A DNA stretch of 64,000 bases, from positions 45,375-109,374 of the forward strand of contig CACXMA010000004.1 in assembly GCA_902768665.1 (NCBI GenBank). The letters run 5' to 3'. This document shows, one piece after another, positions 20,293 through 57,858 of the stretch. This DNA comes from an uncultured Bacteroidia bacterium (GTDB lineage Bacteria; Bacteroidota; Bacteroidia; Bacteroidales; UBA932). Each line of letters starts with the position of its first letter. The first letter of the stretch is position 1. The position numbers and the translations under genes are program-made. The notes beneath the pieces are model-generated. The model was given only the letters and a program-made list of their open reading frames with translations. It made no database searches and was not told the DNA's origin.

Positions 20293-21672
20293 CGGGGTAG
20301 TGACCAGAAGGAGATTGCCGGAGGGGGTGCGGAGGCCGAAAAGGTGCTTCGTGCCGCCGGAGGCGATGCCTAGCTTGCGGCGAAGGGCGTCGGAGGTCAG
20401 CGGCAGGTTGCGGGCGGTGATTTCTGCCGCGGGGATGCGTTTGCGAAGACTGCGGTAGGTTTCATTGCCAAGGGGCAGAACTTCCTCGATCTGAAAGACT
20501 TTCCCGAAAGGAAGAAGCGCCTTCGGGATGCTTTCGGCGAAGTAGAGATGGGTTGAGGAGTCGGCCTGCGCGAGGCCAAAACGGGAGGCCAGCTGCCGGA
20601 ATACGCCGGCCTTCGCCAGGGCCTTCCCCGGCTCGAACAGCAACCGCTGCGATGGAGCAGCGCTTGCAGAAGTATCTTCCCGGAACAGGGTCGCCACAAG
20701 GCGATTTGCCTGAGCGAGCGTTTCTCCGAAGCAGCCCCTGTCATCGGCATCGAAGGAAAGTGTCGCGCCGTTTTCCATTACCGTCAGCGCATAGGGACCG
20801 TTATAATCCCTTCGGATATGGAGCAGGAGTTCCTTGCACTCGCCGCCGGCGCCGACGACGGTCACGGCCCTGAGGCCCGGCAGCTCCCGCGAGAGCTGCG
20901 TGATATCGGCCATGGGGGAGAGTTTCAGCAGCAGATCCGGGCAGGCGTCCATGAGCTCAGGCAGCAGCGTCAGCACATCCGGCTGACAGTCCGCCAGGCG
21001 GAAGACCTTCCGGCCGTCCTCGGCTCGCCGCGCCGGGTCCAGGAAGATGAGATCGGGGCGGAAATCGCCGAGTATTTCTATGAGATTGCCCGGCACCAGC
21101 TGCCGGCAGCTGAACCGCACGTTCGTGACGCCGAGCTTCCCGAGGTTCTCCTGCGTCGCCTCAGCCAGCGCCGGCTGCATCTCGTTGTACAGCACCTCGC
21201 CGAACAGCCGGCTGAATGCCCAGCTGTCCACTCCCATTCCGCCTGTCAGATCCGCTATCTTCATCGACCTGTCCATAAAAAGGGCCTTATTTGTGGACGG
21301 GTCGCCCAAAACGGAGGGGCTGTCCATAAAAACGGCCCTTTTTATGGACGGCTCGCCATTCTGCATTCCGTCGCACTCGGAACTATGGAGGAAGGCGGTT
21401 TGCAACCTACTGCTTCCCGCAGCAATGGAGTGGGCGACACGGGCCTTTCCAAGGGCGGTTTCTTCGGAGGAACACTGCTCGGCGGCGAGGCGGCTGGGGA
21501 AGCGGAGGGAGGGGACGGCGTACCAGGAAGGGGCCTTCCTCCGGAGACGCCGGCGGCACTCGATCGTCGTTACGGCGAGATCGATGTCGATATCCGGAAA
21601 ACGATGACGCGCCAGCAGCAGCGCTGACGTGTCATCATTTTCGTGTTCCAGTATGAACTCGTCGAGCGTCAA
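20287..21672 (-). CDS. Class I SAM-dependent methyltransferase (THUMP-like family) carrying two in-frame repeat insertions
   Basis: 461 residues. The SAM-binding motif IADLTGGMGVDSWAFSRLF (about 136-154) and the downstream LIFLDPARRAEDGRKVF with the catalytic D-P-A-R are typical of a Bacteroidota methyltransferase family, probably RNA-directed. The N-terminal AEQCSSEETA is also conserved in my memory of the family. Between that and motif I lies a long non-conserved stretch. It includes PSIKRAVFMD and PSTNKALFMD at a 17-residue spacing, encoded by the palindromic element at 21271-21349. A second repeat (20679-20713) encodes ANRLVATLFRE upstream of LLFEPGKALAKAG. The ATG is three bases after the phosphohexomutase stop. 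Function is probably retained; the repeats fall between core motifs. Confidence 0.8.
   Translation of the reverse strand: MTLDEFILEHENDDTSALLLARHRFPDIDIDLAVTTIECRRRLRRKAPSWYAVPSLRFPSRLAAEQCSSEETALGKARVAHSIAAGSSRLQTAFLHSSECDGMQNGEPSIKRAVFMDSPSVLGDPSTNKALFMDRSMKIADLTGGMGVDSWAFSRLFGEVLYNEMQPALAEATQENLGKLGVTNVRFSCRQLVPGNLIEILGDFRPDLIFLDPARRAEDGRKVFRLADCQPDVLTLLPELMDACPDLLLKLSPMADITQLSRELPGLRAVTVVGAGGECKELLLHIRRDYNGPYALTVMENGATLSFDADDRGCFGETLAQANRLVATLFREDTSASAAPSQRLLFEPGKALAKAGVFRQLASRFGLAQADSSTHLYFAESIPKALLPFGKVFQIEEVLPLGNETYRSLRKRIPAAEITARNLPLTSDALRRKLGIASGGTKHLFGLRTPSGNLLLVTTPL
20679..20713. repeat. Dispersed repeat copy inside the methyltransferase gene
   Basis: 35 bases beginning CCCGGAAC and ending GATTTGCCTGA, with inner hairpin TCGCC-ACAA-GGCGA. 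It matches 55183-55218 at 33 of 36 aligned columns (two substitutions, one single-base gap). Here it is translated, on the minus strand, as part of the methyltransferase. Confidence 0.75.
21271..21349. repeat. Two-hairpin palindromic element, in-frame copy in the methyltransferase
   Basis: There are two 28-base palindromes, 21271-21298 and 21322-21349, starting exactly 51 bases apart. The second has perfect 11-base arms, GTCCATAAAAA and TTTTTATGGAC, around CGGCCC. The first is imperfect. The 28-base unit length and the 51-base period are the same as in 57354-57432. Translated on the minus strand, the TCC and ATG-GAC triplets are codons. Confidence 0.8.
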
Positions 21673-21674
21673 AG

Positions 21675-23339
21675 CTAGCTGACGAACTGGGCCTTGAGGG
21701 TCTCGATCTTGGCGGGGGCGTCCGCGCCGGTCGCGCCGAAGTAGAACTTGATCTTCGGCTCGGTGCCGGAAGGCCGTACGGTCACGACGTCGCCGTCTTC
21801 GTTGAAGAACTGCAGCACGTTGGACTTCGGAAGGCCGGTCTCCTCGGGCTTCAGGTAGTCGATGACCTTGACGAGCTTCTTGCCGGCGATGACCTGCGGC
21901 GGCGTGGCGCGGTAGTCGGCCATGATCTTCTGAATCTCCTCGGCGCCGGTCTTGCCCTTGCGGACGATGTAGACCATCTTCTCGACATAGAGGCCGTACT
22001 CATCGTAGACTTTCTGGAGCAGCTGCCACAGGGTCATGCCCTTGTCGGCGGCCCAGGCGGCGCACTCGGCGACCATCACGCCCGCGATCTGGGCGCACTT
22101 GTCACGGACGAAGGAACCGAGGTTAAAGCCGTAGCTCTCCTCGCCGCCGCAGACGAACTCCGTCTTGCCTTCCTGCTGTTTCTGGACCTCGGCGATGTAC
22201 TTGAAGCCCGTAAGGACGTTGTAGCACTTGACGCCGAAACTCTTGCAGATCGCGGCGATAAGCTCGCTGGTGACGATGGTCTTGACGCAGTACTGCTTGC
22301 CGTTGAGCTTGCCGAGCTCTTTCCAGCGGGTAAGGATATAATAGGTGAGGAAGCTCCAGGTCTGGTTGCCGGTGAGCTGGACCATCTTTCCTTCGTCGTT
22401 CCGGACGGCGATGCCGAGACGGTCGGCGTCCGGGTCGGTCGCGAGGACGAGGTCGGCGCCGGTCTCATCGGCCTTGGCGAGGGCCATGGCCATGGCGGCG
22501 GGCTCTTCCGGGTTCGGGGAGGCGACGGTCGGGAAGTTGCCGTCCGGGACTTCCTGCTCGGGGACATGGATGATATTGGTGAATCCGACGCGCTTCAGGG
22601 CCTCGGGCATCAGGCGGACGCCGCAGCCGTGGAGGGGCGTATAGACGATCTTGATGTCGGCGTGCCTGCGGACGGCCTCGGGGGAGAGCGTCAGGGAAAG
22701 CTGGTCGCGGAGATAGCATTCGTCCTCCTCCTTGCCCATGGTCTCGATCGGGGCCTTCGCCTCGCCGGGAACGGGCTGGAAGCGGACCTCGGCCGGGTCT
22801 TCGATCTTGCCGACCTCGGCGACGATGTCCTTGTCCACGGGCGCGGTGATCTGGCCGCCGTCGCACCAGAAGACCTTGTAGCCGTTGTATTCCTTGGGGT
22901 TGTGGCTGGCGGTCACCATGATGCCGGCCGTGGCCTTCTTGAGGCGGATGGAGTAGCTGAGCTCCGGCGTCGGGCGCAGGTCCTCGAAGAGATAGACCTT
23001 GATGCCGTTGTTGCTCAGGACCTCGGCGCTGATCTCGGCGAAGAGGCGGGAGTTGTTGCGGCTGTCATGGGCGATGCAGACGCTGCGGGGGCCTTCGACG
23101 TGGGCCTTGATGTAGTTGGCGAGACCCTGCGTGGCCATACCGACCGTGTATTTGTTCATGCGGTTCGTGCCGACGCCCATCGTGCCGCGAAGGCCGCCGG
23201 TGCCGAACTCGAGGTTGCGGTAAAAAGCGTCCTCCAGGCCGACCGGGTCGGTCTCCATGAGTTGCTTGACTTCGGCCTTGGTCGCGGCGTCGAAATTGCC
23301 GTCCAGCCAGCTCTGGGCGATTTGCTTGTAATCTTTCAT
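21675..23339 (-). CDS. Phosphoglucomutase / phosphomannomutase (alpha-D-phosphohexomutase)
   Basis: 554 residues with all four phosphohexomutase motifs. These are the phosphoserine loop MVTASHNPKEYNG, the metal loop ATDPDADRLG, the sugar loop CGGEESYG, and the phosphate loop RPSGTEPKIKF near the C-terminus. The N-terminal FGTGGLRGTMG is typical of the PGM2-like branch. It interconverts hexose 1- and 6-phosphates. It is transcribed divergently from pgi across 142 bases, joining glycogen/sugar-nucleotide and glycolytic pools at one control region. The methyltransferase follows three bases later. Confidence 0.9.
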   Translation of the reverse strand: MKDYKQIAQSWLDGNFDAATKAEVKQLMETDPVGLEDAFYRNLEFGTGGLRGTMGVGTNRMNKYTVGMATQGLANYIKAHVEGPRSVCIAHDSRNNSRLFAEISAEVLSNNGIKVYLFEDLRPTPELSYSIRLKKATAGIMVTASHNPKEYNGYKVFWCDGGQITAPVDKDIVAEVGKIEDPAEVRFQPVPGEAKAPIETMGKEEDECYLRDQLSLTLSPEAVRRHADIKIVYTPLHGCGVRLMPEALKRVGFTNIIHVPEQEVPDGNFPTVASPNPEEPAAMAMALAKADETGADLVLATDPDADRLGIAVRNDEGKMVQLTGNQTWSFLTYYILTRWKELGKLNGKQYCVKTIVTSELIAAICKSFGVKCYNVLTGFKYIAEVQKQQEGKTEFVCGGEESYGFNLGSFVRDKCAQIAGVMVAECAAWAADKGMTLWQLLQKVYDEYGLYVEKMVYIVRKGKTGAEEIQKIMADYRATPPQVIAGKKLVKVIDYLKPEETGLPKSNVLQFFNEDGDVVTVRPSGTEPKIKFYFGATGADAPAKIETLKAQFVS

Positions 23340-23373
23340 CGTATCAGTGTTTAGTGTTTGTCGGTCAATCGTA

Positions 23374-23381
23374 CAAAAATA
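23374..23381 (-). promoter_or_regulatory. Promoter -7 box of the phosphohexomutase operon
   Basis: The minus strand reads TATTTTTG (TAnnTTTG), 34 bases before the ATG at 23339. Confidence 0.6.
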
Positions 23382-23408
23382 AGGATAATTGCATAATAAT
23401 CCAATGAA

Positions 23409-23424
23409 AAAAGCGGCCGCTTTT
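23409..23424. promoter_or_regulatory. 16-base perfect palindrome between divergent pgm and pgi promoters
   Basis: AAAAGCGGCCGCTTTT is its own reverse complement. It is centred 22 bases before the pgi -7 box and 36 bases before the pgm -7 box on the other strand. Position and symmetry fit an operator for a dimeric regulator of both genes; no regulator is identified. Confidence 0.45.
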
Positions 23425-23438
23425 CAGTAAAAAATTAG

Positions 23439-23446
23439 TATATTTG
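23439..23446 (+). promoter_or_regulatory. Promoter -7 box of pgi
   Basis: TATATTTG matches TAnnTTTG, 35 bases before the ATG at 23482. Confidence 0.65.
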
Positions 23447-23481
23447 TAAGTTTTAAAGAAATAACTAAAAACAGGATAATT

Positions 23482-24825
23482 ATGGTAAAAGTCAATGTGA
23501 GCGGTTGCGCTTCCTTCGCGGATGCGGCCAAGTATCAGCAGTATGTAGCGAAAGCCATCAAGGCACAGCAGGTGCTCAAGGCCGGAAACGGCGCGGGCAA
23601 TGATTTCCTCGGCTGGAGGGTCCTGCCTTCCGGCACGCCCGAGTCCCTCGTCGCCGCCTGCGAGGCGGTCCGCGACGACTGGGCCGGCAGGGGAGTCGAC
23701 CTGGTGATTGCCGTCGGTATCGGCGGGAGCTACCTCGGTGCGAAATGCGTCATCGAGGCTCTGAGCCACAATTTTGCCAAACAGCTCCGCACCCGGAAGG
23801 CCGCCGAGGTCGTCTTCGCCGGCAACAACCTCTCCGAGGACTATCTCTCTGAGCTGATGGATCTCGCCGCCGAACGCAACGTCGCCTGCATCGTCATCTC
23901 CAAGTCCGGCACCACGACCGAGCCGGCCGTCGCCTTCCGCCTGATCAAGCAGTACCTCGAGCAGCGCTACGGCAAGGCCGAGGCCGCCGCCCGCATCGTC
24001 GCCATCACCGACGCGAAAAAGGGCGCCCTCAAGACCCTCTCCACGCAGGAAGGCTACCGCAGCTTCATCGTCCCGGACAACGTAGGCGGCCGTTTCTCCG
24101 TCCTGACCCCGGTCGGCCTGCTGCCGATCGTCGCCGCCGGCTTTGACATCCGCGCCCTGCTGAAGGGGGCCCTCGAGATGGAGAAGGCGCTCGCGGACGA
24201 GAAGGAGGACAACCCCGCCATCGTCTATGCCGCCATGCGCAACCTCCTCTACGCCGAACTCGGCAAAAAGGTCGAAATCCTCGTCAACTACAACCCCAAG
24301 CTGACCTATGTCGCCGAATGGTGGAAGCAGCTCTACGGCGAGTCCGAGGGCAAGGACGGCAAGGGCATCTTCCCGGCCAGCGTCAACAACACCGCCGATC
24401 TCCACTCCATGGGCCAGTTCATCCAGGAGGGTGAGCGCGTCATGTTCGAGACCGTCATCAGCGTCGACGAGGCGGACCGCAAGGTCGTCATCGGCACCGA
24501 CCCCGAGAACCTCGACGGCCTGAATTTCCTCGCCGGCAAACGTGTGGAGGAGTGCAACCGCATGGCCCAGCTTGGTACGAAGCTTGCCCATATCGACGGT
24601 GGCGTGCCCCAGCTCGAGGTCAGCATCCCGAAGCTCGACGCCTACAATCTCGGTTCCCTGCTCTACTTCTTCGAGTGGGCCTGCGGCGTAAGCGCCTACA
24701 CGCTGGGGGTCAACCCGTTCAACCAGCCGGGTGTCGAGGCCTACAAGAAGAACATGTTCGCCCTGCTCGAAAAGCCCGGCTACGAAGAGGCCACCAAGGC
24801 CATCAAGCAGCGACTGGCAGAATAA
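23482..24825 (+). CDS. pgi: Glucose-6-phosphate isomerase
   Basis: 447 residues, the short bacterial PGI form. Visible motifs are AVGIGGSYLGAK, ISKSGTTTEPA (phosphate-binding SIS fold), LHSMGQFIQEG (catalytic region) and the C-terminal VNPFNQPGVEAYKKNMF. It interconverts glucose 6-phosphate and fructose 6-phosphate in the cytoplasm. It is divergent from the phosphohexomutase gene and eight bases upstream of an M16 protease gene. Confidence 0.95.
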   Translation: MVKVNVSGCASFADAAKYQQYVAKAIKAQQVLKAGNGAGNDFLGWRVLPSGTPESLVAACEAVRDDWAGRGVDLVIAVGIGGSYLGAKCVIEALSHNFAKQLRTRKAAEVVFAGNNLSEDYLSELMDLAAERNVACIVISKSGTTTEPAVAFRLIKQYLEQRYGKAEAAARIVAITDAKKGALKTLSTQEGYRSFIVPDNVGGRFSVLTPVGLLPIVAAGFDIRALLKGALEMEKALADEKEDNPAIVYAAMRNLLYAELGKKVEILVNYNPKLTYVAEWWKQLYGESEGKDGKGIFPASVNNTADLHSMGQFIQEGERVMFETVISVDEADRKVVIGTDPENLDGLNFLAGKRVEECNRMAQLGTKLAHIDGGVPQLEVSIPKLDAYNLGSLLYFFEWACGVSAYTLGVNPFNQPGVEAYKKNMFALLEKPGYEEATKAIKQRLAE

Positions 24826-24833
24826 GCTGAAAG

Positions 24834-27749
24834 ATGAAAAAAGGACTCCTCCTTTCCCTTGCGGTGCTCGCCCTTGCGACGGCACCGCTCTTCGGACAAA
24901 GCCTGTCCGAAGGCCCCCTGGCCGTGCGCCAGCTGACCCTGTCCAACGGCATGAAGGTATGCCTCAATGAAGACCACGGCCAGCCGATTGTCTATGGCGC
25001 TGTCGTCGTCGGGGCCGGAGCGGTGGACTGCCCGGACACCGGTATCGCCCACTACTTCGAGCACATCATGTTCAAGGGAACGGACTGCATCGGCACCGTC
25101 GACTATGCGGCCGAGAAGGTCTATCTCGACAGCATCGAGACCCTCTACAGCCGCCTTGCCGCGACCAAGGAACAGGCCGGGCGCGACGCCATCCAGAAGG
25201 AGATCAACCGCATCAGCCTCGCCGCGGCCGACTTCGCCATCCCGAACGAATTCACGACCCTGATCACCCAGTACGGCGGCACCGGCCTGAACGCCGGCAC
25301 CTCCTACGATTTCACGGTCTACTACAACAGTTTCGACTCCCGCTATCTCGAGCCTTGGCTCCTCGTCGGCAGCCAGCGCTTCCTAAGTCCGGTCTTCCGC
25401 CTGTTCCAGGGCGAGCTCGAGACCGTCTATGAGGAGAAGAACATGGGCTCCGACGGTCTCGGGGACGGCCTCATCGAGCATGCCATCGCCGCTTTTGCCG
25501 GCAAGGACAACCCTTACGCCTTCCCGGTCATCGGCAGCACCGAGAACCTCAAGAATCCGGACCAGGCCGCGATGAAGGCCTTCTATGAGAAGTATTACAT
25601 CGCCCCGAACATGACCCTCCTGCTGGTCGGCGATTTCGATGCCGACGCGGTCGTCCCGCAGCTGGAGGCAAGCTTCGGCCGGATCCGCGGCGGCCGGATG
25701 CCGGAGCGCCTGAGCGGCCGGGAAAAGCCGCTGGAAGGTGTTACCGAGGCGCAGCTCAAGATCGGGATTCCGATCATCAAGGCTTCTGCCCTGGCCTTCA
25801 ACGGTCCGCTCTACGGCGATCCTCAGGAGATGGCCTTCCAGGTCGGCACCTCCCTGCTTTCCAGCAGCGCCGGGACGGGCTATCTCGACTCGCTGATGAC
25901 GAGCCACAAGCTGCTGGCGACCGCTGCTACGGCCCTTCAGTTCAACCATCTCAGCGCCGCTGTCCTGCTCAATATCCCGAAGATCCCCTTCGGCTCGCTG
26001 AAAAAGGCGGAAAAACGGATTCTCGAACAGGTCGTGCGCATCCAGGAAGGCGATTTCTCGGACGAAGCCCTGGCAAGGGCCAAGCGCGATCTCCGCAAGG
26101 ATCTCCTCCAGTCGCTGGAAACGATCGAGGACCGCAGCCAGGTCATGATGATGGTCCTGACCCAGGGCCGTGACTGGGACGATTATCTCGCGCAGGTAGA
26201 GTCCGTCGACGGCATTACCCGCGAGCAGGTCATGGCCGCGATGAAGAAGTATTACGACACGTCGAACTACCTGCGTGTCCGCAAGAAATACGGTTCCTAC
26301 CCCAAGGACGAGGCTTCCAAGCCGGATTACAAGCCGGTCGTGCCGTCGCACCGCAACGAAGAATCGGCCTTCGCCAAGGACATGGCCGCGCGCTTCGGCC
26401 AGGGCTTCGGCGATCCGAAGCTGGTCGATCCGGCGACGGCGCCCGTCCGGCGTATTCCGCTGAATGCCGGCTCGGTCCTCTATGCCGGAGACAACCCGGT
26501 GAACGATCTTTTCGAGCTGACGCTCCGCTACAATGTCGGCTCGGGCAATGACGAGAAGCTGTATCTGCTTGCCGGCCTTCTGCCCAAGATCGGCACCGAT
26601 TCGCTGTCGGTGCAGGAGCTTTCAAGGGCCTGGCAGCGCATCGGAACGACCTGGACGGTCGATGCGGCGGCGGATGGATTCGCCTTCAAGCTGAAGGGTT
26701 TCGATGCCTCGCTGGAGGAGTCCGTGGCGCTGCTTCGACACATGCTGGAGGATTTTGATGCCGACAAGGACGCCCTTTCGGATGCGATCTCCGAGTATAA
26801 TCAGGAAAGCATGCTGGCCTTTGTCGGCGGCACGTCCGCCAAGTTCTCCGCCCTGCTGCAGAAAACGATGCTTGGGGAGAACGCCCCGCTGATGCGGCGC
26901 CTGACCTCGAAGGAGCTGAAGCCCTACAAGAAGGGCGACGGGCTGCTGGACCTGCTGGAGGACGAGGTCCTGCAGACCCGCTGCGACGTGATCTACACCG
27001 GTCGCCGCGACGCGGAAGAGGTGGCGGCGCTCGTCCGCAGCCAGCTGCCCATCGGCACGAGGAAGGTGGAGCGGGCCATTACGCCTGTCCAGTCCTACAA
27101 CAAGCCGCAGGTGCTGTTTCTCCATGCATCCGGTTCCCGTCAGACCTATATCGCCGCTTATGTGACCGATCCCGCCTGCGGCATGGATCCCGACCGCCAG
27201 GCCCGGCTGAAACTCTGGGCGAATTACTTCGGCGGCGGCATGTCCTCGGTCCTGTTCCAGGAAATCCGCGAGTTCCGCGCCTATGCCTATTCCGCCTTTG
27301 CCATGGCCCGCGTGCCGGACGTTGAATCGGTCCGCAAGGGAGATATGGGTATGTGCGTCGGCTATCTGGCGACGCAGGCCGACAAGGCTTCCGAAGCGAT
27401 GGCGCTGATGGATTCCCTCTACCGGAATCTCCCCGTGTCGCCGGTGATGGCCCGCACGGCCAAGCAGGATGTCATCAACGGCATCAACAACGCCATCCCC
27501 GATTTCCGCAGCCTGCCGGGCTATATCGCCGCCCTGGAGCGCCGCGGCCTGACGGAGGATCCGGACAAGGCCCTCTATGAGGCTCTGGTCCCGCTGGAGA
27601 TGGATGACATCGCCGCCTACGCCGGGGAAGTGGCCGCGCGGCCGTTTACCTGGATCGTCGTCGGCGACAAGAAGAAGATGGACATGGAGAAGCTGGCGGA
27701 GTATGGCGAAATCGTCTATATCAAGAAAAAGGATCTGATTCGGAAATAA
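24834..27749 (+). CDS. M16-family zinc metalloprotease (second copy)
   Basis: 971 residues with signal peptide MKKGLLLSLAVLALATAPLFG. Zinc motif HYFEH (73-77) and the downstream ELETVYEEKNMG. Two M16/M16_C repeats, the second without a zinc site but with the conserved YFGGGMSSVLFQEIRE. Periplasmic protease. Its organisation matches the gene at 16203-19124 but the sequences are clearly diverged, so this is an old paralogue pair rather than a recent duplication. It starts eight bases after pgi and ends six bases before ftsE. Confidence 0.9.
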   Translation: MKKGLLLSLAVLALATAPLFGQSLSEGPLAVRQLTLSNGMKVCLNEDHGQPIVYGAVVVGAGAVDCPDTGIAHYFEHIMFKGTDCIGTVDYAAEKVYLDSIETLYSRLAATKEQAGRDAIQKEINRISLAAADFAIPNEFTTLITQYGGTGLNAGTSYDFTVYYNSFDSRYLEPWLLVGSQRFLSPVFRLFQGELETVYEEKNMGSDGLGDGLIEHAIAAFAGKDNPYAFPVIGSTENLKNPDQAAMKAFYEKYYIAPNMTLLLVGDFDADAVVPQLEASFGRIRGGRMPERLSGREKPLEGVTEAQLKIGIPIIKASALAFNGPLYGDPQEMAFQVGTSLLSSSAGTGYLDSLMTSHKLLATAATALQFNHLSAAVLLNIPKIPFGSLKKAEKRILEQVVRIQEGDFSDEALARAKRDLRKDLLQSLETIEDRSQVMMMVLTQGRDWDDYLAQVESVDGITREQVMAAMKKYYDTSNYLRVRKKYGSYPKDEASKPDYKPVVPSHRNEESAFAKDMAARFGQGFGDPKLVDPATAPVRRIPLNAGSVLYAGDNPVNDLFELTLRYNVGSGNDEKLYLLAGLLPKIGTDSLSVQELSRAWQRIGTTWTVDAAADGFAFKLKGFDASLEESVALLRHMLEDFDADKDALSDAISEYNQESMLAFVGGTSAKFSALLQKTMLGENAPLMRRLTSKELKPYKKGDGLLDLLEDEVLQTRCDVIYTGRRDAEEVAALVRSQLPIGTRKVERAITPVQSYNKPQVLFLHASGSRQTYIAAYVTDPACGMDPDRQARLKLWANYFGGGMSSVLFQEIREFRAYAYSAFAMARVPDVESVRKGDMGMCVGYLATQADKASEAMALMDSLYRNLPVSPVMARTAKQDVINGINNAIPDFRSLPGYIAALERRGLTEDPDKALYEALVPLEMDDIAAYAGEVAARPFTWIVVGDKKKMDMEKLAEYGEIVYIKKKDLIRK

Positions 27750-27755
27750 AAGAAT

Positions 27756-28457
27756 ATGGAGAATAAGGAGGATATCCTGGTGCGCCTCAGGGGCGCTGAC
27801 ATCACGGGCGGCGAACAGGTTGTCGTCTATGGCGTGGACATGAGCATCGCCCGCGGCGAGGTCGTCTATCTCGTCGGAAAGGTAGGCTCCGGCAAGACGT
27901 CCATCATCCGCGCACTGACGGCGGAGAATCCGCTGCGGCGGGGGAGCGGCGAGGTCTGCGGCTTCCGGCTCGACGGCATCCGCCAGCGGGACATCCCGAA
28001 GCTGCGCCGGCGTCTCGGCGTGGTGTTCCAGGATTTCCAGCTCCTGACGGACCGCACGGTGGAAGAGAACCTCGATTTCGTGCTCCGCTCGACCGGCTGC
28101 AGGAAGGTGGAGGACCGCGACAGGCGCATCGCCGAGGTGCTCGAGGCCGTCGGCATGTCGACGAAGGCGCACCGCTGGCCCCACGAACTCTCCGGCGGCG
28201 AGCAGCAGCGCATCGCCATCGCCCGCGCCCTGCTGAACCGCCCCGACGTCATCCTCGCCGACGAGCCGACCGGCAACCTCGACCCGGAGACCGCCGACGG
28301 CATCCTCCAGCTCCTCCAGCGCATCAACCGGGAGCGGGGGACGGCCATCATCATGGTGACGCACAATCCCCGCGTATACGAGAAGTACCCCGGGCGCATC
28401 TTCGTGTGCGAGAATGAGGAATGCCTCGAGAGAACACCCGACCCCGCACAGGTATGA
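27756..28457 (+). CDS. ftsE: FtsE-like ABC ATPase
   Basis: 233 residues. Walker A is GKVGSGKTS (41-49), the Q-loop FQDFQLL, signature [14 protein letters not shown], Walker [13 protein letters not shown] and H-loop VTHN. FQDFQLL and DEPTGNLD are typical of FtsE, the ATPase that with FtsX controls peptidoglycan hydrolases at the septum. FtsX is not in this window; the next gene is nth, overlapping by ATGA. A lipoprotein-release (LolD-like) ATPase is the alternative reading. Confidence 0.82.
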
Positions 28458-29110: not shown

Positions 29111-29111
29111 G

Positions 29112-29128
29112 AATAATCGAAGATTATT
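29112..29128. promoter_or_regulatory. Inverted repeat upstream of the TPR gene promoter box
   Basis: AATAATC-GAA-GATTATT, seven perfect pairs, ends two bases before the -7 box at 29131. Possible operator, or the terminator stem of nth. Confidence 0.35.
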
Positions 29129-29130
29129 GT

Positions 29131-29138
29131 TACATTTG
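29131..29138 (+). promoter_or_regulatory. Promoter -7 box of the TPR-barrel operon
   Basis: TACATTTG matches TAnnTTTG, 15 bases before the ATG at 29153. It excludes the alternative GTG start at 29138. Confidence 0.6.
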
Positions 29139-29152
29139 TGAAATTTTGTCAA

Positions 29153-47306: not shown

Positions 47307-47337
47307 TTGCCCTTTTTCCGAAAACTTTGTATCTTTA
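47307..47337 (+). promoter_or_regulatory. Probable promoter of the M64 peptidase gene
   Basis: TTG at 47307-47309 and TATCTTTA at 47330-47337 (one mismatch to TAnnTTTG), 20 bases apart, 23 bases before the ATG at 47360. Confidence 0.5.
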
Positions 47338-47359
47338 AGGCATAAAACCGATGTTGCCC

Positions 47360-48700: not shown

Positions 48701-48701
48701 C

Positions 48702-49946: not shown

Positions 49947-49989
49947 TTACAATCTGACAAGTTTTCTTTCTTTTTCCTTCCGGATTGCG

Positions 49990-49997
49990 TATATTTG
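49990..49997 (+). promoter_or_regulatory. Promoter -7 box of the arginine deiminase operon
   Basis: TATATTTG, full TAnnTTTG match, 26 bases before the ATG at 50024. It excludes a TTG start at 49985. Confidence 0.65.
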
Positions 49998-50023
49998 TAA
50001 GTCTAACCACAATGATTGAAAGA

Positions 50024-50935
50024 ATGGATCTCCATATTGTGAATGAAACCGCCCGGCTGCGGGAAGTCGTCCTCGGCTGGCCGGCCGGCAACGGCCCCGT
50101 GCCGACGCTGGAGGAAACCTTTGACAGCAAGTCCTATGAGTCCGTCAAGAACGGCGTCTACCCGACGGACGAGGCGATTATCCGCGAGATGGGTGCCTTC
50201 GAGGCCGTGCTGAAAAAGTACGGTGTCACGGTCTACCGCCCGAATCCCGTGGAGAACTGCAACCAGGTCTTCGCCCGCGACGTGGGTTTTGTTATCGATG
50301 ACAAGATCATCGTTTCGAATATCATCCCCGACCGTCAGGCCGAGATTGACGCATATGGCGACATCTACAGCCGGATCCACTACAAGCAGATCTACAACCT
50401 TCCCGAGGCCGTCCATGTTGAGGGCGGCGACGTGATCCCCTTCGGCAATCGCATCTTCGTCGGCCAGTACGACTTCCCGGACTATTCTTCCGTCAAGACA
50501 GCCCGCACGAACCGCCTCGCCATCGACTACCTCCGCATGATTTTCCCGGACAAGAAAATCATTCCGCTGAACCTCCGCAAGTCGGATACGGACCCTTACG
50601 AGGGCATCCTCCACCTCGACTGCACCTTCATGCCGGTCGGCCCCGATATGGCCATCATGTACCGCGAGGGCTTCATGAACCCCCGCGACGCCGACCATGT
50701 CGCCGACATCTTCGGCCGCGAAAACGTCTTCTACCTGACCCGCGAGGAGATGTACTGGATGAACTCCAACGTCTTCTCCATCGCCCCTGACGTCGTGGTC
50801 GTCGAGGAGCATTTCACCCGCCTCAAGGCCTGGCTCGAGAGCCGCGGCATGACGGTGGAGACGGTGCCTTACAGAGAAATTTCCAAGATGGGCGGCCTGC
50901 TGCGCTGCTCCACCTTACCTTTACGAAGAGACTAA
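50024..50935 (+). CDS. Amidinotransferase-fold deiminase, likely the arginine deiminase of the pathway
   Basis: 303 residues from ATG 50024 (ATG 50012 also in frame). The guanidino-modifying fold is shown by FARD (83-86), EGGDV (133-137), HLDC (His198) and the C-terminal nucleophile Cys295 in GGLLRCST. The size is that of dimethylarginine dimethylaminohydrolase or citrulline-type hydrolases, not of classical ArcA (about 400 residues with a helical insert). The next two genes are carbamate kinase and ornithine carbamoyltransferase, so arginine to citrulline is the likely reaction. A dimethylarginine or other guanidine substrate cannot be excluded. Confidence 0.78.
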   Translation: MDLHIVNETARLREVVLGWPAGNGPVPTLEETFDSKSYESVKNGVYPTDEAIIREMGAFEAVLKKYGVTVYRPNPVENCNQVFARDVGFVIDDKIIVSNIIPDRQAEIDAYGDIYSRIHYKQIYNLPEAVHVEGGDVIPFGNRIFVGQYDFPDYSSVKTARTNRLAIDYLRMIFPDKKIIPLNLRKSDTDPYEGILHLDCTFMPVGPDMAIMYREGFMNPRDADHVADIFGRENVFYLTREEMYWMNSNVFSIAPDVVVVEEHFTRLKAWLESRGMTVETVPYREISKMGGLLRCSTLPLRRD

Positions 50936-50949
50936 TCCTTTTTCTTCCT

Positions 50950-51873
50950 ATGAACCAGAAACTAGCCATGGTCGCCTTTGGCGGCAATGCGCTCCTCCGC
51001 GCCGGACAGAAGGGCACGTATGAGGAGCAGCTTGAGAATGTCGAACGCACCTGCGGACAGCTCCGCCACCTCATCGAGCGGGGCTACGACCTCGTTATCG
51101 GCCACGGCAACGGCCCCCAGGTCGGCAATGTCATGCTCCAGCACGAGGCCGGCCGCCAGCAGTTCGGCCTTCCCGCAATGCCGATGGATTTCTGCGGCGC
51201 GGAGACCCAGGGCTCCATCGCCTACATGATCGAGACCGGCCTGGAGAAAGTGCTCCGCAGCGCCGGCATCGACCGCCATGTCGTCTCCGTCGTGACCCGG
51301 GTCGAGGTGGCCGCCGACGATCCGATGTTCCGGAACCCGACCAAGTTCGTCGGCCCGTATTACCCGGAGGCTCCGAAGGACGGCGCCGTCTATAAGGAGG
51401 ACCCGCGCGGTCTCGGCTGGCGCAAGGTCGTCGCATCGCCTAAGCCGGTGAAAATCAGTAATATCGACATCGTCGAGCAGCTTGCCCGTGAGGGCCATGT
51501 CGTCATCACCGTCGGTGGCGGCGGCATCCCGGTAGTCGCAACGCCGGAGGGCCACCGCGGCGTCGAGGCCGTCATCGACAAGGACCTCGCCAGCGCCCTC
51601 GCGGCCGTGACCATGAAGGCCGACGAGTTCTATATCCTGACCGACGTCCCGAAGGTCTACATCAACTACCGCAAGGACAACCAGCAGGCGCTCGGCCTCA
51701 TGAGAGTCGCCGAGGCGAAGCAGTATCTCGCCGAGGGACAGTTCGCCGAGGGCTCGATGGCCCCGAAGGTCCGCGCCGGCATCGCCTTTGTCGAGGCGGG
51801 CGGCCGGGAGTGCATCATCACGGAAGCCGCCGCCCTGGACGACCCGACCTGCGGCACCCGCATCATCGCTTAA
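50950..51873 (+). CDS. arcC: Carbamate kinase
   Basis: 307 residues. [10 protein letters not shown] at the N-terminus, [20 protein letters not shown] and the C-terminal [17 protein letters not shown] are the carbamate kinase hallmarks within the amino-acid kinase fold. It makes ATP from carbamoyl phosphate and ADP. It lies 14 bases after the deiminase gene and 19 before the carbamoyltransferase gene, giving all three steps of arginine fermentation. Confidence 0.95.
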
Positions 51874-51892
51874 TCATTATACCTTAATACTT

Positions 51893-52894
51893 ATGCCTTA
51901 CAACCTCAGAAACCGCAGCTTCCTCAAGCTGCTGGACTTCAGCCCGAAGGAGATCCAGTTCCTGCTGGACCTCGCCCGCGATCTCAAACGCGCCAAGTAC
52001 ACCGGCACCGAGCAGCCGACCCTCAAGGGCAAGAACATCGCCCTGATTTTCGAAAAGACCTCCACGCGCACCCGCTGCGCCTTCGAGACGGCCGCCTATG
52101 ACCAGGGCGCCCACGTGACCTACCTCGGCCCGACGGGTTCCCAGATCGGCGTGAAGGAGTCCATGAAGGACACCGCCCGTGTCCTCGGCCGCATGTATGA
52201 CGGCATCGAATACCGCGGCTTCGCGCAGAAGACCGTCGAGGAGCTCGCCGCCTATGCCGGCGTGCCCGTCTGGAACGGTCTGACGAACGAATTCCATCCG
52301 ACGCAGATCCTCGCCGACTTCCTGACGATGTCCGAGCATGTCGACAAGCCGCTCAGCCAGGTGTCCTATGCCTACCTCGGCGACGCCCGTTTCAACATGG
52401 GCAACTCGCTCCTTGTCGGCGGTGCCAAGATGGGCATGGATGTCAGAATCGTGGCCCCGAAGGCCCTCCAGCCCGCCAAGGAACTGGTGGACGAGTGCAT
52501 GGCCATCGCCAAGGAGACCGGCGCCCGCATCACCATCACCGACGACCCCAAGGCCGGCGTCAAGGGTTGCGACTTCCTCTATACCGACGTCTGGGTTTCC
52601 ATGGGTGAGCCCGCCGAGGTCTGGGCCGAGCGCATCGCCATGCTGAAGCCTTACCAGGTCAACAAGGAGCTCATGGCCGCGACCGGCAACCCCAAGTGCA
52701 AGTTTATGCACTGCCTCCCGGCCTACCACAACCTCGAGACGCAGGTCGGCCGCGACGTCCACAAGCAGTTCGGCCTCGACGGCATCGAGGTCACGGAGGA
52801 CGTCTTCGAGAGCGAGAACAGCATCGTCTTCGACGAGGCCGAGAACCGCATGCACACCATCAAGGCCGTCATGGTCGCCACCCTTGGCGACTAA
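51893..52894 (+). CDS. argF: Ornithine carbamoyltransferase
   Basis: 333 residues from ATG 51893; an in-frame extension to 51788 would run through arcC and is rejected. The carbamoyl-phosphate loop is STRTR (57-61), ornithine site HCLPAYHN (about 272-279) and DVWVSMGEP. Standard OTCase length. In this operon it probably runs in the catabolic direction, splitting citrulline to ornithine and carbamoyl phosphate. No arginine/ornithine antiporter gene is in the window. Confidence 0.95.
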
Positions 52895-52918
52895 TTTTTA
52901 ACTGGAAGTGCAAAAAAA

Positions 52919-52949
52919 TTTGGAGATTCAAAAAAAATACGTACCTTTG
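52919..52949 (+). promoter_or_regulatory. Promoter of tRNA-Glu
   Basis: TTTG at 52919-52922 and TACCTTTG at 52942-52949 with 19 bases between, 11 bases before the mature tRNA: full consensus and a good reference promoter for this genome. Confidence 0.8.
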
Positions 52950-52960
52950 CACTCCCAACT

Positions 52961-53035
52961 GCTGGGTTCGTATAACGGTTAGTACTCGAGATTCTCAATC
53001 TCGCAATAGGAGTTCGATTCTCCTACCCAGTACCA
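52961..53035 (+). tRNA. tRNA-Glu (anticodon CTC), CCA encoded
   Basis: A 75-base cloverleaf. Acceptor GCTGGGT pairs with ACCCAGT (first pair G-T). D-loop GTATAACGGTTAGTAC. Anticodon arm CGAGA-TTCTCAA-TCTCG with anticodon CTC. T-arm TAGGAG-TTCGATT-CTCCTA type, then discriminator A and encoded CCA. It has its own promoter and terminator. Confidence 0.92.
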
Positions 53036-53069
53036 AAGAGACTTGCTGCAAGGCGAGTCTCTTTTTTTT
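53035..53069 (+). terminator. Rho-independent terminator of tRNA-Glu
   Basis: AAAGAGACTTGC (53035-53046) pairs with GCGAGTCTCTTT (53053-53064) with one G-T pair, loop TGCAAG, then a T tract of eight. Confidence 0.85.
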
Positions 53070-53084
53070 GTGCCAAATATTACG

Positions 53085-53092
53085 TATCTTCG
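53085..53092 (+). promoter_or_regulatory. Near-consensus promoter box of pncA
   Basis: TATCTTCG differs from TAnnTTTG at one position and lies 22 bases before the ATG at 53114, just after the tRNA terminator. Confidence 0.45.
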
Positions 53093-53113
53093 TACGATTA
53101 AAACCTTTCGCTT

Positions 53114-53722
53114 ATGAAGATGCCTAAAGATGCGGCCATCGTCGTGGTGGACATGCTCTACGACTTCATTGACGGATCGATGGCTTGCGCCCATGCCGAG
53201 CCGGCCGTCGCCAGGGCGCTCGAGCTCCTGCGGCAGAATTCCGCCGCTACGGAGGACGGTGACGCCGAGGAAATCATCCAGGGCGGGGGAAGTCTCCCCG
53301 TGCTTTTCGTCTGTGACTCCCATCCGGCCGACCACTGCTCTTTCGCGGAGCAGGGGGGACCGTGGCCGCCCCACTGCGTCAGCGGGACGCGCGGCGCCGA
53401 GATCCACGACGACCTCAAGCCTTTTGCCGACGAAGCCTGCATCTTCCGCAAAGGCTGCGACAAGACGCTCGAGCAGTACTCGGGCTTCGAAGGCCGCAAC
53501 GCCGCCGGCCAGTCCCTCGCCGAGGTGCTGGAAATCCTCGACGTGCGGAGCGTGCTGGTTGTCGGCATCGCGACGGAATTCTGTGTCCGCAACACGGCTG
53601 AGGACCTGTTGAAGGCCGGTTTCCCGGTCACGGTCCTGGAGGAGGCGCTCGCTTATGTCGATTACAAGGGACATCTCGAGGCCCTCGATGCCATGAAAGA
53701 AGAAGGAATCAAAATTCAATAG
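53114..53722 (+). CDS. pncA: Nicotinamidase (isochorismatase fold)
   Basis: 202 residues. The catalytic triad is Asp13 (VVDMLYDF), Lys113 (FRKGCDK) and Cys157 (GIATEFCVRNTA). Metal ligands Asp68, His70 and His74 are in CDSHPADH. This full set identifies nicotinamidase rather than a generic isochorismatase hydrolase. It converts nicotinamide to nicotinate for NAD salvage, complementing the PnuC route at the start of the window. glmM follows after three bases. Confidence 0.9.
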   Translation: MKMPKDAAIVVVDMLYDFIDGSMACAHAEPAVARALELLRQNSAATEDGDAEEIIQGGGSLPVLFVCDSHPADHCSFAEQGGPWPPHCVSGTRGAEIHDDLKPFADEACIFRKGCDKTLEQYSGFEGRNAAGQSLAEVLEILDVRSVLVVGIATEFCVRNTAEDLLKAGFPVTVLEEALAYVDYKGHLEALDAMKEEGIKIQ

Positions 53723-53725
53723 ACT

Positions 53726-55138
53726 ATGACGCTCATCAAATCCATTTCCGGTATCCGCGGCACCATCGGCGGCGCCCCCGGCAACGCACTGACCCCCATT
53801 GACATCGTCAAGTTTACCTATGCCTATGCGGCGACACTCCCGCAGCGCAAACCGACCCCGAACGGCGAGCGCTACAAGGTGGTCGTCGGCAAGGATGCGC
53901 GCCTGAGCGGCGACATGGTCGAGCAGCTTGTGGTCGGCACCCTGATCAGCTGCGGCATCGACGTCGTCAAATGCGGCTTCGCATCGACCCCTACGACCGA
54001 AATGGCCGTTCTCTTCGCCAAGGCCGACGGCGGCATCATCCTCACCGCCTCGCATAACCCGCGCCAGTGGAACGCCCTCAAGCTCCTCAACGACAAGGGC
54101 GAATTCCTCACCGCCGTGGAAGGCCAGGCCGTCCTGGACCTCGCCGCCAGCGAGAACTTCGACTTCGCGCCCGTCGAAGCCCTCGGCAACATCGAGGAGG
54201 AAGACTTCACGGACAAGCATCTCGACGCCGTCCTGGCGCTGGAGGCCGTTGACGTCCCCGCCATCAAGGCCGCGAACTTCAAGGTGGTCGTCGATGCGGT
54301 CAATTCCGTCGGCGGCATCATCATGCCCCGCCTCCTCGAGCGTCTCGGCGTGAAGTGCATCTGCCTCAACTGCGAGCCTACGGGCGAATTCGCCCACAAT
54401 CCCGAGCCGCTCCCGAAGAACCTCGTCGAGCTCAGCGAGACCGTCGTCCGCGAGAAGGCGGACCTCGGCGTCAGCGTCGACCCGGACGTGGACCGTCTCG
54501 CCTTCATCTGCGAGAACGGCGAAGCCTTCGTCGAGGAGTACACGCTCGTTTCCGTCGCGGACTACCTCTGCGAACTGGCCGAGAAGGCCGGCAAGCCCAT
54601 CGCCACCGTCTCCAACCTCAGCTCCAGCCGGGCCCTCCGCGATGTGACCGAGGCCCATGGCGGCAAGTATTACGCTTCCGCGGTCGGTGAGGTCAACGTC
54701 ACGACCCTCATGCACAAGGTCGGCGCCCTGATCGGCGGCGAAGGCAACGGCGGCGTCATCTATCCCGCGATCCATGCCGGTCGCGACGCCATGGTCGGCG
54801 TGGCGCTGTTCCTCAGCAACCTCGCCCACAAGAAGCTCTCCGTCAGCGAGCTGAAAAAGACCTATCCTCCGTATTTCATCGCCAAGAACAAGATCGAGCT
54901 CAGCGATTCCGCCCTCATCGACAAGATCCTCAGTGAGCTCAAGAGCATCTACGCCAAGGAAGACGTCAACACGATCGACGGCGTCAAGATCAGCTTCGAG
55001 GCCAGGAAAGAGTGGGTCCACCTCCGCAAGTCCAACACCGAGCCTATTATCCGCATCTACTCCGAGGCATCGACCATGGAGCGCGCCGAGGCCCTCGGCA
55101 ACGAGGTCATCGCCGTCGCCAAGAAGATTATTGGATAG
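53726..55138 (+). CDS. glmM: Phosphoglucosamine mutase
   Basis: 470 residues. N-terminal ISGIRGTIGG, phosphoserine loop LTASHNPRQWN (Ser about 109), metal loop SVDPDVDRLAF, sugar loop GGEGNGGVIYP and phosphate loop RKSNTEPIIRIYSEA. GEGNGG in place of GEESG is the GlmM/archaeal-like pattern seen in Bacteroidota. It makes glucosamine 1-phosphate for UDP-GlcNAc and the cell wall. It is co-directional with pncA and is followed by a large hairpin. Confidence 0.88.
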   Translation: MTLIKSISGIRGTIGGAPGNALTPIDIVKFTYAYAATLPQRKPTPNGERYKVVVGKDARLSGDMVEQLVVGTLISCGIDVVKCGFASTPTTEMAVLFAKADGGIILTASHNPRQWNALKLLNDKGEFLTAVEGQAVLDLAASENFDFAPVEALGNIEEEDFTDKHLDAVLALEAVDVPAIKAANFKVVVDAVNSVGGIIMPRLLERLGVKCICLNCEPTGEFAHNPEPLPKNLVELSETVVREKADLGVSVDPDVDRLAFICENGEAFVEEYTLVSVADYLCELAEKAGKPIATVSNLSSSRALRDVTEAHGGKYYASAVGEVNVTTLMHKVGALIGGEGNGGVIYPAIHAGRDAMVGVALFLSNLAHKKLSVSELKKTYPPYFIAKNKIELSDSALIDKILSELKSIYAKEDVNTIDGVKISFEARKEWVHLRKSNTEPIIRIYSEASTMERAEALGNEVIAVAKKIIG

Positions 55139-55152
55139 TATTTTGCTTCTGA

Positions 55153-55236
55153 GCGTCGGCTGGCTGCCGTGAAGGGCATTTGCCCGGAATAGGGTCGCCG
55201 CAAGGCGATTTGCCCTGAACGGCAGCCTGCCGACGC
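55153..55236. repeat. 84-base structured inverted repeat containing a dispersed repeat core
   Basis: The arms 55153-55170 and 55219-55236 (GCGTCGGC-T-GGCTGCCGT and its complement) pair at 17 of 18 positions, with one T-T mismatch. The interior forms two more hairpins: GGGC-ATTT-GCCC (55174-55185) and AGGG-TCGCC-GCAA-GGCGA-...-CCCT with a GNRA-type loop. The inner 55183-55218 matches 20679-20713 in the methyltransferase gene. The gap runs from glmM (55138) to the next start at 55249. It may act as a terminator, but there is no T run. Confidence 0.8.
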
Positions 55237-55248
55237 CTCTGTAAAGAT

Positions 55249-56316
55249 ATGTTTTCATTCCGAACCACACCCCTGGAGGACCAGCTGGACCGGGCGCTGA
55301 TGAGCGGCCGGGTCGGCTGTTTCTGCACGCAGAACTGCTGGGATACCGCCCGCGGAAGGTGGATGTATGACATCTTCCGCGAGCGGGGGAATCTCGAGGT
55401 CGTCTTCAGCCCGCGGGAGGCGGAGCTGACGCCCGGGACGAACCATATCGAGTTCGACCTCGAGCGCCTGCGCGGCCTCGATGCGGTCGTCGTGGAGATC
55501 CAGGATGTCGGCAGCCGCTACTTCAATTACACCAAGGACGTGATGCAGCTCATGGAGATGCTCTCGCTCCTTGGGGAAGAGGCGCCGGCGATGTATGTGG
55601 TCGACCATGTCAACGCCGCCGGACGCTATGTCGAGGGCACGATTCCCTCGGTCCGCTGTGAGATGGGCGTGCCGAAGGTGGCCCACCGCCACGGCCTGAC
55701 CCTCGGCGAACTCTGCAATCTTTACTACACCGAGATCGGCGCCCGTTTCGCCCTCCACATCATCTCCGCCGGCGCGACGCAGGCGAACCGTCTCCTGATG
55801 CCCTGGACCATCGCCCCGGCCTCGGACATCCCGGGCTTTTTCACCTGCGACCTCTATTCCGGCGGCGGTCTGTGGAACAACACGACCATCACTCCCGGCA
55901 TCGGCACTTCCAGGCCCTATGAGTATTTCGGAGCACCGTTCATCCGCCCCAATGTGGCCGACATCCTTCCGTCGCCGCAGGGGACGCTCCTGCGCCCGTG
56001 TTCCTTCACGCCTGCGACCGGCCGCTATGCCGGCGAGCGCTGCTTCGGCTACCAGATCCTCCTGACCCCCGGCGTGCCGTACCATTCCCTGCTGCATACG
56101 CTCCAACTGATGCGCTATTTCACGGAGCATTACTCCCAGTTCGAGATCGAGGACGCCTTCTGGATCAAGCTGGCGGACCCGGTGCTGGCCGATTATCTCG
56201 GCGGCGTGATCTCGTTCCAGGATGCTCGCGAGCACATCAAGCTCGAGGAGCAGAAATGGATCCGCAAGGCCAAACGCTTCACCCTCTACGACGATGAGCC
56301 CAGACGCATTAAATAG
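55249..56316 (+). CDS. DUF1343 protein, NamZ-like exo-beta-N-acetylmuramidase family
   Basis: 355 residues. Family motifs are VVVEIQDVGSRYFNYTKDV, YVVDHVNAAGRYVEGTIP, HRHGLTLGELCNLYYTEIG and GLWNNTTITPGIGTSRPYE. DUF1343/NamZ enzymes remove terminal MurNAc from peptidoglycan fragments and are common in Bacteroidota. There is no signal peptide at this start, so it may be cytoplasmic (muropeptide recycling, fitting its position after glmM) or the start may be further in. The end overlaps the next gene's likely start by 23 bases. Confidence 0.8.
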   Translation: MFSFRTTPLEDQLDRALMSGRVGCFCTQNCWDTARGRWMYDIFRERGNLEVVFSPREAELTPGTNHIEFDLERLRGLDAVVVEIQDVGSRYFNYTKDVMQLMEMLSLLGEEAPAMYVVDHVNAAGRYVEGTIPSVRCEMGVPKVAHRHGLTLGELCNLYYTEIGARFALHIISAGATQANRLLMPWTIAPASDIPGFFTCDLYSGGGLWNNTTITPGIGTSRPYEYFGAPFIRPNVADILPSPQGTLLRPCSFTPATGRYAGERCFGYQILLTPGVPYHSLLHTLQLMRYFTEHYSQFEIEDAFWIKLADPVLADYLGGVISFQDAREHIKLEEQKWIRKAKRFTLYDDEPRRIK

Positions 56317-56734
56317 AATCAAACGGATGGACAGCGGCAGCCTCTCCTTCGCTCCCGAATCGAAAGGGGATGCAAAAGAGTGGCTTGCCGGCTTCCTGCA
56401 GCAAAAGGGGGGACGCGTGTTCGAAAAGGACGGGGAGATCTGGTGGGAGCATTCGGATCTTCTTCATTATCAGCTCATCACGGCGAAGGTGGAGCCGAGC
56501 GGAGACCGCTCCGTGGCCTCCTGCAAGGAGGGGAGCGCGGCGACGCCGCTGCTTCGCTGGACGGCCTGGCTGCTGTTTCTGGCGCTGAGCGCCGGTTCTG
56601 TCTGGTGGCTCCGGAGCGGCTGGTGCGCGGCGATCATCTTCGTGCTGCTGCTCCTGACCCTCTGGGTGGTGCTCCGGCCCGCGCAGAAGTCCGTCCGGCG
56701 GATGCTTCGCCTGGCAGAGGAGCTGCACGCATGA
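56294..56734 (+). CDS. Small two-helix membrane protein, unknown function
   Basis: 146 residues from ATG 56294 (overlapping the previous gene), or 135 from ATG 56327. A soluble N-terminal part of about 85 residues is followed by two close hydrophobic helices (WTAWLLFLALSAGSVWWL and WCAAIIFVLLLLTLWVVL). A basic C-terminal tail follows. No family recognised. Its stop overlaps the start of the BtuF-like lipoprotein gene (ATGA at 56731), so translation is coupled. Confidence 0.6.
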   Translation: MSPDALNRIKRMDSGSLSFAPESKGDAKEWLAGFLQQKGGRVFEKDGEIWWEHSDLLHYQLITAKVEPSGDRSVASCKEGSAATPLLRWTAWLLFLALSAGSVWWLRSGWCAAIIFVLLLLTLWVVLRPAQKSVRRMLRLAEELHA

Positions 56735-57858
56735 TGAAAGCCTTTCGGCATATTGCCTTTCTGGCCGTCCTCGGGGCGGCTTTTCTCTCGTCCTGCCGCG
56801 GCCGTCAGCGGATAGTCGTGCCCGAGACTTCGGGTTATGCCGACTATGCGGAGTACTTCGATCTGCTGCCGGAAGGGGAGGGCTGGGCTGTCGTGTCGCT
56901 GAGTCCCTATGACGGCTCGGCGGATACGCTGCGGATCACCGAGCCGCTGCAGCGGATTGTCTGTATGTCCACGTCCCATGTCGGCTTTCTCGACGCCATC
57001 GGCGCCGCGGATGCCGTTGCGGCTGTCTCAGGCTGCGATTTTGTCAGCAGTCCGCGTGTGCGGGAGCGCATCGCGGAGGGCCTTGTCGCCGAGGCCGGCT
57101 ATGATGCCGCGCCGGCTTTTGAGACGCTCTACCGGCTCCGGCCGGACGTCGTCCTGAGCTATTCCCTCGGCGGAGAATCGGCGATGGACGAGCGCCTGAG
57201 GGAACTCGGTATCCGTGTCTTCACGCTCTACGAGCACCTCGAGTCCCATCCGCTCGCCCGGGCGGAATATGTCCGTCTCTTCGGTGCCCTGACCGGCCGC
57301 ATGGCCGCTGCCGACAGCCTCTTTGCCCTCGTTCGCGATGGATATCAGGCGTCGTCCATCTATGGGCCTGAAAAAATGGACGAGTGCCCTGAAAAAGGCC
57401 AGTCATCCATAAATTGCGGTCAAATAATGGACGGGCGGAAGGTCCTTGTCAATCTGCCCTATGCCGGGGTGTGGTATGTCCCGGGGGCGGAAAGTTATAT
57501 GGCGCGGCTGATCCGAGACGCCGGGGGAGAGGTGCTGGGCGCGGAACAGGGAACCGCGCAGTCGGGGATGATTTCCCTGGAGCGCGCATACGAACTCTCC
57601 TGCGAGGCAGACTTCTGGCTGAATGCCGGCAATGTCCGGTCCCTGGATGAACTCCGGCGGGAAAATGCCGCCTTCGCCTCCTTCCCGGTCGCCGCTCCGG
57701 GGCGCGTCTATACGAACAACCGCCGCGCGGAAACCGGCGGCGGCAATGATTTCTGGGAGTCCGGCGCCGTCCGCCCGGATCTCATACTGAAAGACCTCCG
57801 GACGATCTTCGCCGGAGGCCCAGAGGATTCCTTATATTATTATCGCGCAGTCCTTTAG
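56731..57858 (+). CDS. BtuF-like ABC-transporter substrate-binding lipoprotein with an in-frame repeat insertion
   Basis: 375 residues from ATG 56731; longer in-frame extensions run through the upstream gene. Lipobox LSSC near residue 22. The class III binding fold contains RIVCMSTSHVGFLDAIGAADAV, LRPDVVLSYS and NLPYAGVWYVPGAESYMARL, typical of cobalamin or iron-chelate binding proteins. Residues about 209-234 are encoded by the palindromic element at 57354-57432. They show the repeated peptides SSIYGPEKMD and SSINCGQIMD at a 17-residue spacing, in the segment between the helical backbone and the second lobe. No permease or ATPase gene is adjacent. The ligand is not determinable. Confidence 0.8.
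   Translation: MMKAFRHIAFLAVLGAAFLSSCRGRQRIVVPETSGYADYAEYFDLLPEGEGWAVVSLSPYDGSADTLRITEPLQRIVCMSTSHVGFLDAIGAADAVAAVSGCDFVSSPRVRERIAEGLVAEAGYDAAPAFETLYRLRPDVVLSYSLGGESAMDERLRELGIRVFTLYEHLESHPLARAEYVRLFGALTGRMAAADSLFALVRDGYQASSIYGPEKMDECPEKGQSSINCGQIMDGRKVLVNLPYAGVWYVPGAESYMARLIRDAGGEVLGAEQGTAQSGMISLERAYELSCEADFWLNAGNVRSLDELRRENAAFASFPVAAPGRVYTNNRRAETGGGNDFWESGAVRPDLILKDLRTIFAGGPEDSLYYYRAVL
57354..57432. repeat. Two-hairpin palindromic element, in-frame copy in the BtuF-like gene
   Basis: There are two 28-base palindromic units, 57354-57381 and 57405-57432, starting 51 bases apart. Both begin TCCAT after their first base and end ATGGAC. The second unit (ATCCATAAA...ATAATGGAC) is closest to the units at 21271-21349. 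Here the plus strand is translated; TCC and ATG-GAC are codons, the same phase as in the methyltransferase. Confidence 0.8.

Follow-up and report, generated by a model that had tools for sequence, protein, structure and literature searches.

How do two unrelated genes come to hold the same pair of palindromes, in frame and at one spacing? The question arises in a stretch of 64,000 nucleotides (the window) from an uncultured Bacteroidia bacterium (Bacteroidales, UBA932; contig CACXMA010000004.1, positions 45,375 to 109,374), in which a methyltransferase gene and a gene for a BtuF-like binding protein each carry a double palindrome. The elements and their host genes are the following.

21271..21349, minus strand: double palindrome 1, units 21271-21298 and 21322-21349 with starts 51 bp apart; in-frame insert of the methyltransferase gene with the peptide PSIKRAVFMDSPSVLGDPSTNKALFMD
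20287..21672, minus strand: host gene 1, PG_1098-type methyltransferase with a THUMP-like C terminus (PF18096, PF22013)
57354..57432, plus strand: double palindrome 2, units 57354-57381 and 57405-57432 with starts 51 bp apart; in-frame insert of the BtuF-like gene with the peptide SSIYGPEKMDECPEKGQSSINCGQIMD
56734..57858, plus strand: host gene 2, periplasmic binding protein of the BtuF type, 374 amino acids from the ATG at 56734 (PF01497)

The original prediction had described both elements from the letters alone, and their coordinates, their 28-nt palindromic units with starts 51 apart, the TCCAT start and TGGAC end of all four units, and the [PS]S[IT]-x6-MD peptides, for which the methyltransferase uses the minus strand and the BtuF-like gene the plus strand, were found as it had claimed. 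The pattern TCCATAN{6,20}TGGACG covers three of the four units; it has three matches in the window against 0.06 expected, and none of 100 shuffles reached three. Based on the evidence set out below, the elements are very probably non-autonomous mobile double palindromes of a divergent, REPtron-like system, that is, one resembling repetitive extragenic palindromic sequences (REPs) and REP-associated tyrosine transposases (RAYTs), and they are apparently spread by a family of HUH transposases.

The source genome (of gut-type Bacteroidales, 2.03 Mb, 88% complete; labelled G000, contigs C1, C5, C6, C9 etc.) holds further copies, as the prediction of a repeat implied. A search for TCCAT-N17-TGGAY-N24-TCCAT-N17-TGGAY with up to 3 mismatches gave seven loci, and the reversed pattern used as a control gave none. 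Three of the seven lie within genes, all in frame (the PG_1098-type methyltransferase, the BtuF-like protein and TruB). A second palindrome family, CGGGCAC-N16-GTGCCCG, is represented by 26 units (one-unit pattern; reversed control 1) at 14 loci, namely 13 doublets at exactly 51 bp (in one of these the second unit is degenerate) and a lone unit. Four of these loci are intragenic and in frame, in the AroD-AroA linker, MsrA, RibF and an RsmF-like methyltransferase, and the remaining ones were placed outside genes. Judged by reading frames, 14 of the 21 loci of both families together are outside genes. The other TCCAT loci and the CGGGCAC loci are:

C6:9853 and C6:10859: TCCAT doublets, on either side of one ~305-amino acid HUH/Y1 transposase-like gene
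C6:63517: TCCAT doublet, between open reading frames (ORFs)
C9:22953-23082: tandem array of three TCCAT units, between ORFs
C1:111463-111543 and 13 further loci (L395-L407): CGGGCAC family

A gene for a candidate transposase is thus flanked on both sides by TCCAT doublets. It has a homologue in another genus (G034; BLASTP 4e-29, 23% identity), which likewise sits between two doublets. The source genome encodes two other homologues, with the motifs YILRNP and YISRNP: one (C1:111557) has a CGGGCAC doublet on one side, and the other (C5:20610-21419) has doublets of the type CTACCCTCC..GGAGGGTAG on both sides, at a spacing of ~53 bp by manual count. Among 70 transposase loci, comprising 30 returned by a family homologue search and 40 chosen from its list, 41 have a pair of palindromes 50-52 bp apart within 700 bp (34 of them at 51), and 22 have such pairs on both sides; shuffled flanks of these loci yielded no palindrome pairs 50-52 bp apart. 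By homologue strength, pairs occur at 24/30, 14/20 and 3/20 loci. Unrelated genes of the same genus, taken as a control, have a palindrome pair at 1 of 141 loci, rows that are not all independent. The palindrome arms vary between transposase loci, for example, CTGTCCAAG..CTTGGACAG, CGGGCAC..GTGCCCG and GAGCAAA..TTTGCTC, and a core that is A-rich, then G+C, then T-rich is kept in many, not all, palindrome types.

Residues H74, H76, Y132, R135 and N136 do not vary among the 73 unique homologues of this protein. The HUH motif and a single tyrosine are thus present, and Y132 is probably the catalytic residue. All 73 have the motif YxxRN and do not match the Y-x-x-N-P given for class 2 (PMC6006769). 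Single members have weak scores to the Y1_Tnp and REP_Tyr_transpos profiles, and the transposase does not reach the curated cut-offs of PF01797 and NF047646. It also carries an extra C-terminal region. An AlphaFold2 model (mean confidence score, pLDDT, 73.5) predicts a Y1-like transposase fold and resembles Y1 transposases, among them a RAYT in complex with its REP; the absence of other families from the list of fold matches carries no meaning. In the source genome's Bacteroidales family, 123 of the 249 genomes sampled have a homologue. In a 395-genome sample of the phylum, a match was found in 10 of the 394 others, in every case to the core only (profile positions 12-173 of 323) and in ORFs of 178-254 amino acids, except one of 553; a full-length relative was not found in this sample.

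Comparison with orthologues shows what the in-frame copies add to their hosts. The unit peptides are absent from the 29 other aligned rows in each of the methyltransferase, TruB and RibF, and none of the 10 other rows aligning over the site in the BtuF-like protein has its insert (2 further rows were not counted), so that the segments of both window proteins are lacking in orthologues, in support of the original prediction. In MsrA, exactly 26 residues are missing from 26 of 29 orthologue rows, 25 from two rows and 28 from one, with one gene entered twice and the rows not all independent. The net insert in MsrA is therefore 78 nt, or 26 codons, and two cores of 27 nt each, spaced 51 apart, span exactly 78 nt. 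The insert site is a loop variable among orthologues in the methyltransferase, the BtuF-like protein, TruB and RibF, and a loop of nearly constant length in MsrA. An all-against-all comparison of the collected loci gave no exact empty sites at the DNA level, but filled orthologous pairs and array-length differences instead. In three relatives (L439, L442, L463), the RibF loop holds other repeat-like peptides (CHSERSEES, VIPSKAKESF), which are perhaps in-frame copies of a different repeat, and the loop may be an insertion hot spot. In two species (L401, L111), two different palindrome families stand at the start of the domain of 5-enolpyruvylshikimate-3-phosphate synthase (AroA); the element of L401 sits in the linker after the AroD domain.

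The original prediction held that the elements occupy the same coding phase. All seven intragenic copies of the source genome indeed share one unit register, reading S-I-K-x-x-x-F-M-D or G-T-K-x-P-x-F-V-P with variants, whereas the element in a MetH-like gene of another species is in a different phase, and phase is thus not a rule. In each of the three host genes of the TCCAT family, a single phase of the coding strand is open; the shared phase of this family follows from the stop codons that close the others. For 12 doublets of the GGGCAC family, 65 of 72 frame-element combinations are open, and one of three phases is closed in the MsrA copy. The four intragenic copies of this family lie in one phase, an agreement with a chance probability of (1/3)^3, about 0.04, calculated post hoc, and only suggestive. 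The idea of a mobile repeat shaped to survive inside ORFs is accordingly retained in part: the repeat is dispersed and apparently spreading, but two thirds of the source-genome loci of both families (14/21) lie outside genes and stop codons account for the TCCAT phase.

Doublets are also found in other genomes. A relaxed doublet pattern matched at least 118 stretches in a collection of genome contigs, and 75 of 80 among the matches listed are from Bacteroidales or Bacteroidota; two of these carry the name Candidatus Cryptobacteroides faecigallinarum. Arrays were drawn from plus-strand matches, leaving out 14 of 118 loci matched on the minus strand only, and comprised 109 arrays with 288 units among the matches listed. 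Exact doublets account for 83 of the 109, a set gathered by a two-unit pattern in which single units could not appear, and which includes at least four chance arrays from outside Bacteroidales (L131, L138, L141, L150). In doublets of other species, mostly outside recognisable genes, the palindrome-edge positions covary in pairs, which indicates a conserved element of ~85 bp. Forty ORFs cover arrays in other species; 14 were inspected, and most are seemingly spurious frames between genes. At one orthologous intergenic site there are three units in L059 (G228) and six in L091 (G202), and array length thus changes between species. Non-Bacteroidales matches make up 5 of 80 among the matches listed. 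Three loci from Chloroflexota/Dehalococcoidia share one conserved stretch, which L177 matches as well; the likeness of this stretch to the pattern (L131, L138, L150, L177) is due to chance. A Lachnospiraceae locus, beside what we take to be genes for dnaA/dnaN proteins, is made up of TTATCCACA boxes. Clustered regularly interspaced short palindromic repeats (CRISPR) are ruled out by the two units as a rule and by spacers that recur within the inspected arrays.

Some of these observations depart from a classical REPtron or favour other explanations: the transposase scores below the Y1/RAYT profile cut-offs and is without the class 2 Y-x-x-N-P; just three of the 21 source-genome loci directly adjoin an HUH gene; many copies lie between ORFs, some in tandem arrays; and peptides of the kind PSIKTALYMD and GTKKPVFVP recur in seven unrelated source-genome genes. 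The few adjoining loci would suit a miniature inverted-repeat transposable element (MITE) or a palindromic element of the Rickettsia type that an unrelated (DDE) transposase moves, with the HUH gene as a bystander, and so would the small size, inverted repeats, dispersal and partly in-frame position, which are like those of Rickettsia palindromic elements and MITEs. We regard this as very unlikely in view of the close two-sided flanking of the HUH gene in the source genome and in another genus, the excess of palindrome pairs at transposase loci over control loci, and a spacing that stays constant while the palindrome type changes between transposase loci. The intergenic copies and tandem arrays could also be read as fixed, immobile regulatory or structural DNA sites, such as terminators or protein-binding arrays. 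Such sites are very improbable given the copies within coding sequence, the clean presence or absence of 26 codons in MsrA, and a patchy distribution in which the TCCAT type occurs in 12 of 249 family genomes (up to 1 mismatch). That the recurring peptides reflect a 17-residue protein repeat under selection (cf. PARCELs), with the palindrome as a by-product, is scarcely credible, as this is largely contradicted by the intergenic copies, by the covariation in doublets mostly outside recognisable genes and by the absence of the peptides from orthologues.

For the favoured REPtron-like system, we propose the following course of events. An HUH/Y1 transposase encoded between two doublets would recognise its own palindrome type. 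On single-stranded DNA, the two ~28-nt palindromes would fold into two hairpins at a fixed distance of 51 nt, and a transposase dimer may grip both; the fixed spacing suggests a simultaneous hold on the two. Cuts at the element edges would be made by the HxH metal site and the single tyrosine, and a ~78-nt unit would be moved or copied to a new site. By analogy with TnpAREP, the substrate of cutting would be folded single-stranded DNA (PMC8266576, PMC2817692, PMC6006769, PMC3116915). Copies landing in suitable protein loops could persist and be translated as 26-residue in-frame inserts, since 78 nt equal 26 codons and stops are few in the sequence. Intergenic copies would persist too, sometimes growing into 51-bp tandem arrays. 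A bolder version, which we think doubtful, is that a new HUH clade measures a fixed distance and moves a stop-poor 78-nt module whose phase is held over unrelated palindromes, and which would serve as a movable in-frame addition of 26 residues to core enzymes.

REPs, RAYTs and REP doublets forming hairpins (REPINs) are established systems. With RAYT/TnpAREP proteins and their REPs or bacterial interspersed mosaic elements, especially subclass 2.6, the present system shares a palindrome-flanked HUH-Y1 gene, dispersed copies that are mostly doublets, and a palindrome that varies with the transposase. The Bacteroidetes TnpAREP of subclass 2.6 have a median of 179 amino acids and atypical flanking structures (PMC6006769), whereas the transposase described here has ~300; its motif is YxxRN rather than the YIH[QN]NP of RAYT/TnpAREP proteins. 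The spacing is here held at ~51 (50-53) bp over many palindrome types. A GTAG foot ahead of the palindrome is missing: with 282 TCCAY units read on both strands, no offset between -20 and -5 has GTRG in more than 7 of 564 cases. As this foot is missing and the profile cut-offs are not reached, the element is not strictly a REP. The usual number of two units (83/109 arrays by the two-unit pattern, 13/14 CGGGCAC loci by the one-unit pattern) is shared with REPINs, but here each unit is a near-complete palindrome, so that the units are direct and inverted at once. With the IS200/IS605 family there is a relation by fold and motif only, namely the Y1 HUH fold and the HxH/Tyr motif.

In-frame REPs and Rickettsia palindromic elements have already been described (PMC3733652). 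The likeness to the latter that had been proposed holds for in-frame palindromic inserts in unrelated genes; it is one of position, and the present elements differ in host phylum and in having a candidate transposase. PARCELs (PMC2996958) are likewise coding repeats with dyad symmetry, but consist of 25-residue repeats in variable-number tandem arrays, in contrast to a two-unit insert with a 17-residue period. The original prediction knew of no description in Bacteroidota. As far as HUH systems of this kind are concerned, subclass 2.6 is in print for Bacteroidetes (PMC6006769), but the lineage of ~300 amino acids, the 51-bp doublets and the 26-codon inserts have no account in the literature searched, which covers few subscription papers and hardly any preprints. 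A largely uncultured Bacteroidales family thereby gains a REPtron-like system in which many natural pairs of transposase and palindrome have one spacing in common. These pairs are material for studying how HUH transposases read hairpins and distance, and MsrA, TruB and RibF provide clean cases for the tolerance of proteins to mobile in-frame inserts, an issue that the Rickettsia elements had brought up.

Two other repeats were noticed. Short tandem repeats of a different family, TCGCTCGAAATGACAGTGTG, adjoin an element at L126:6040-6120. In the window itself, a 33-mer of GTATATTTGTAAGT-like type is present in two copies, 73% identical, at 23438-23470 and 49989-50021, possibly in promoter regions.
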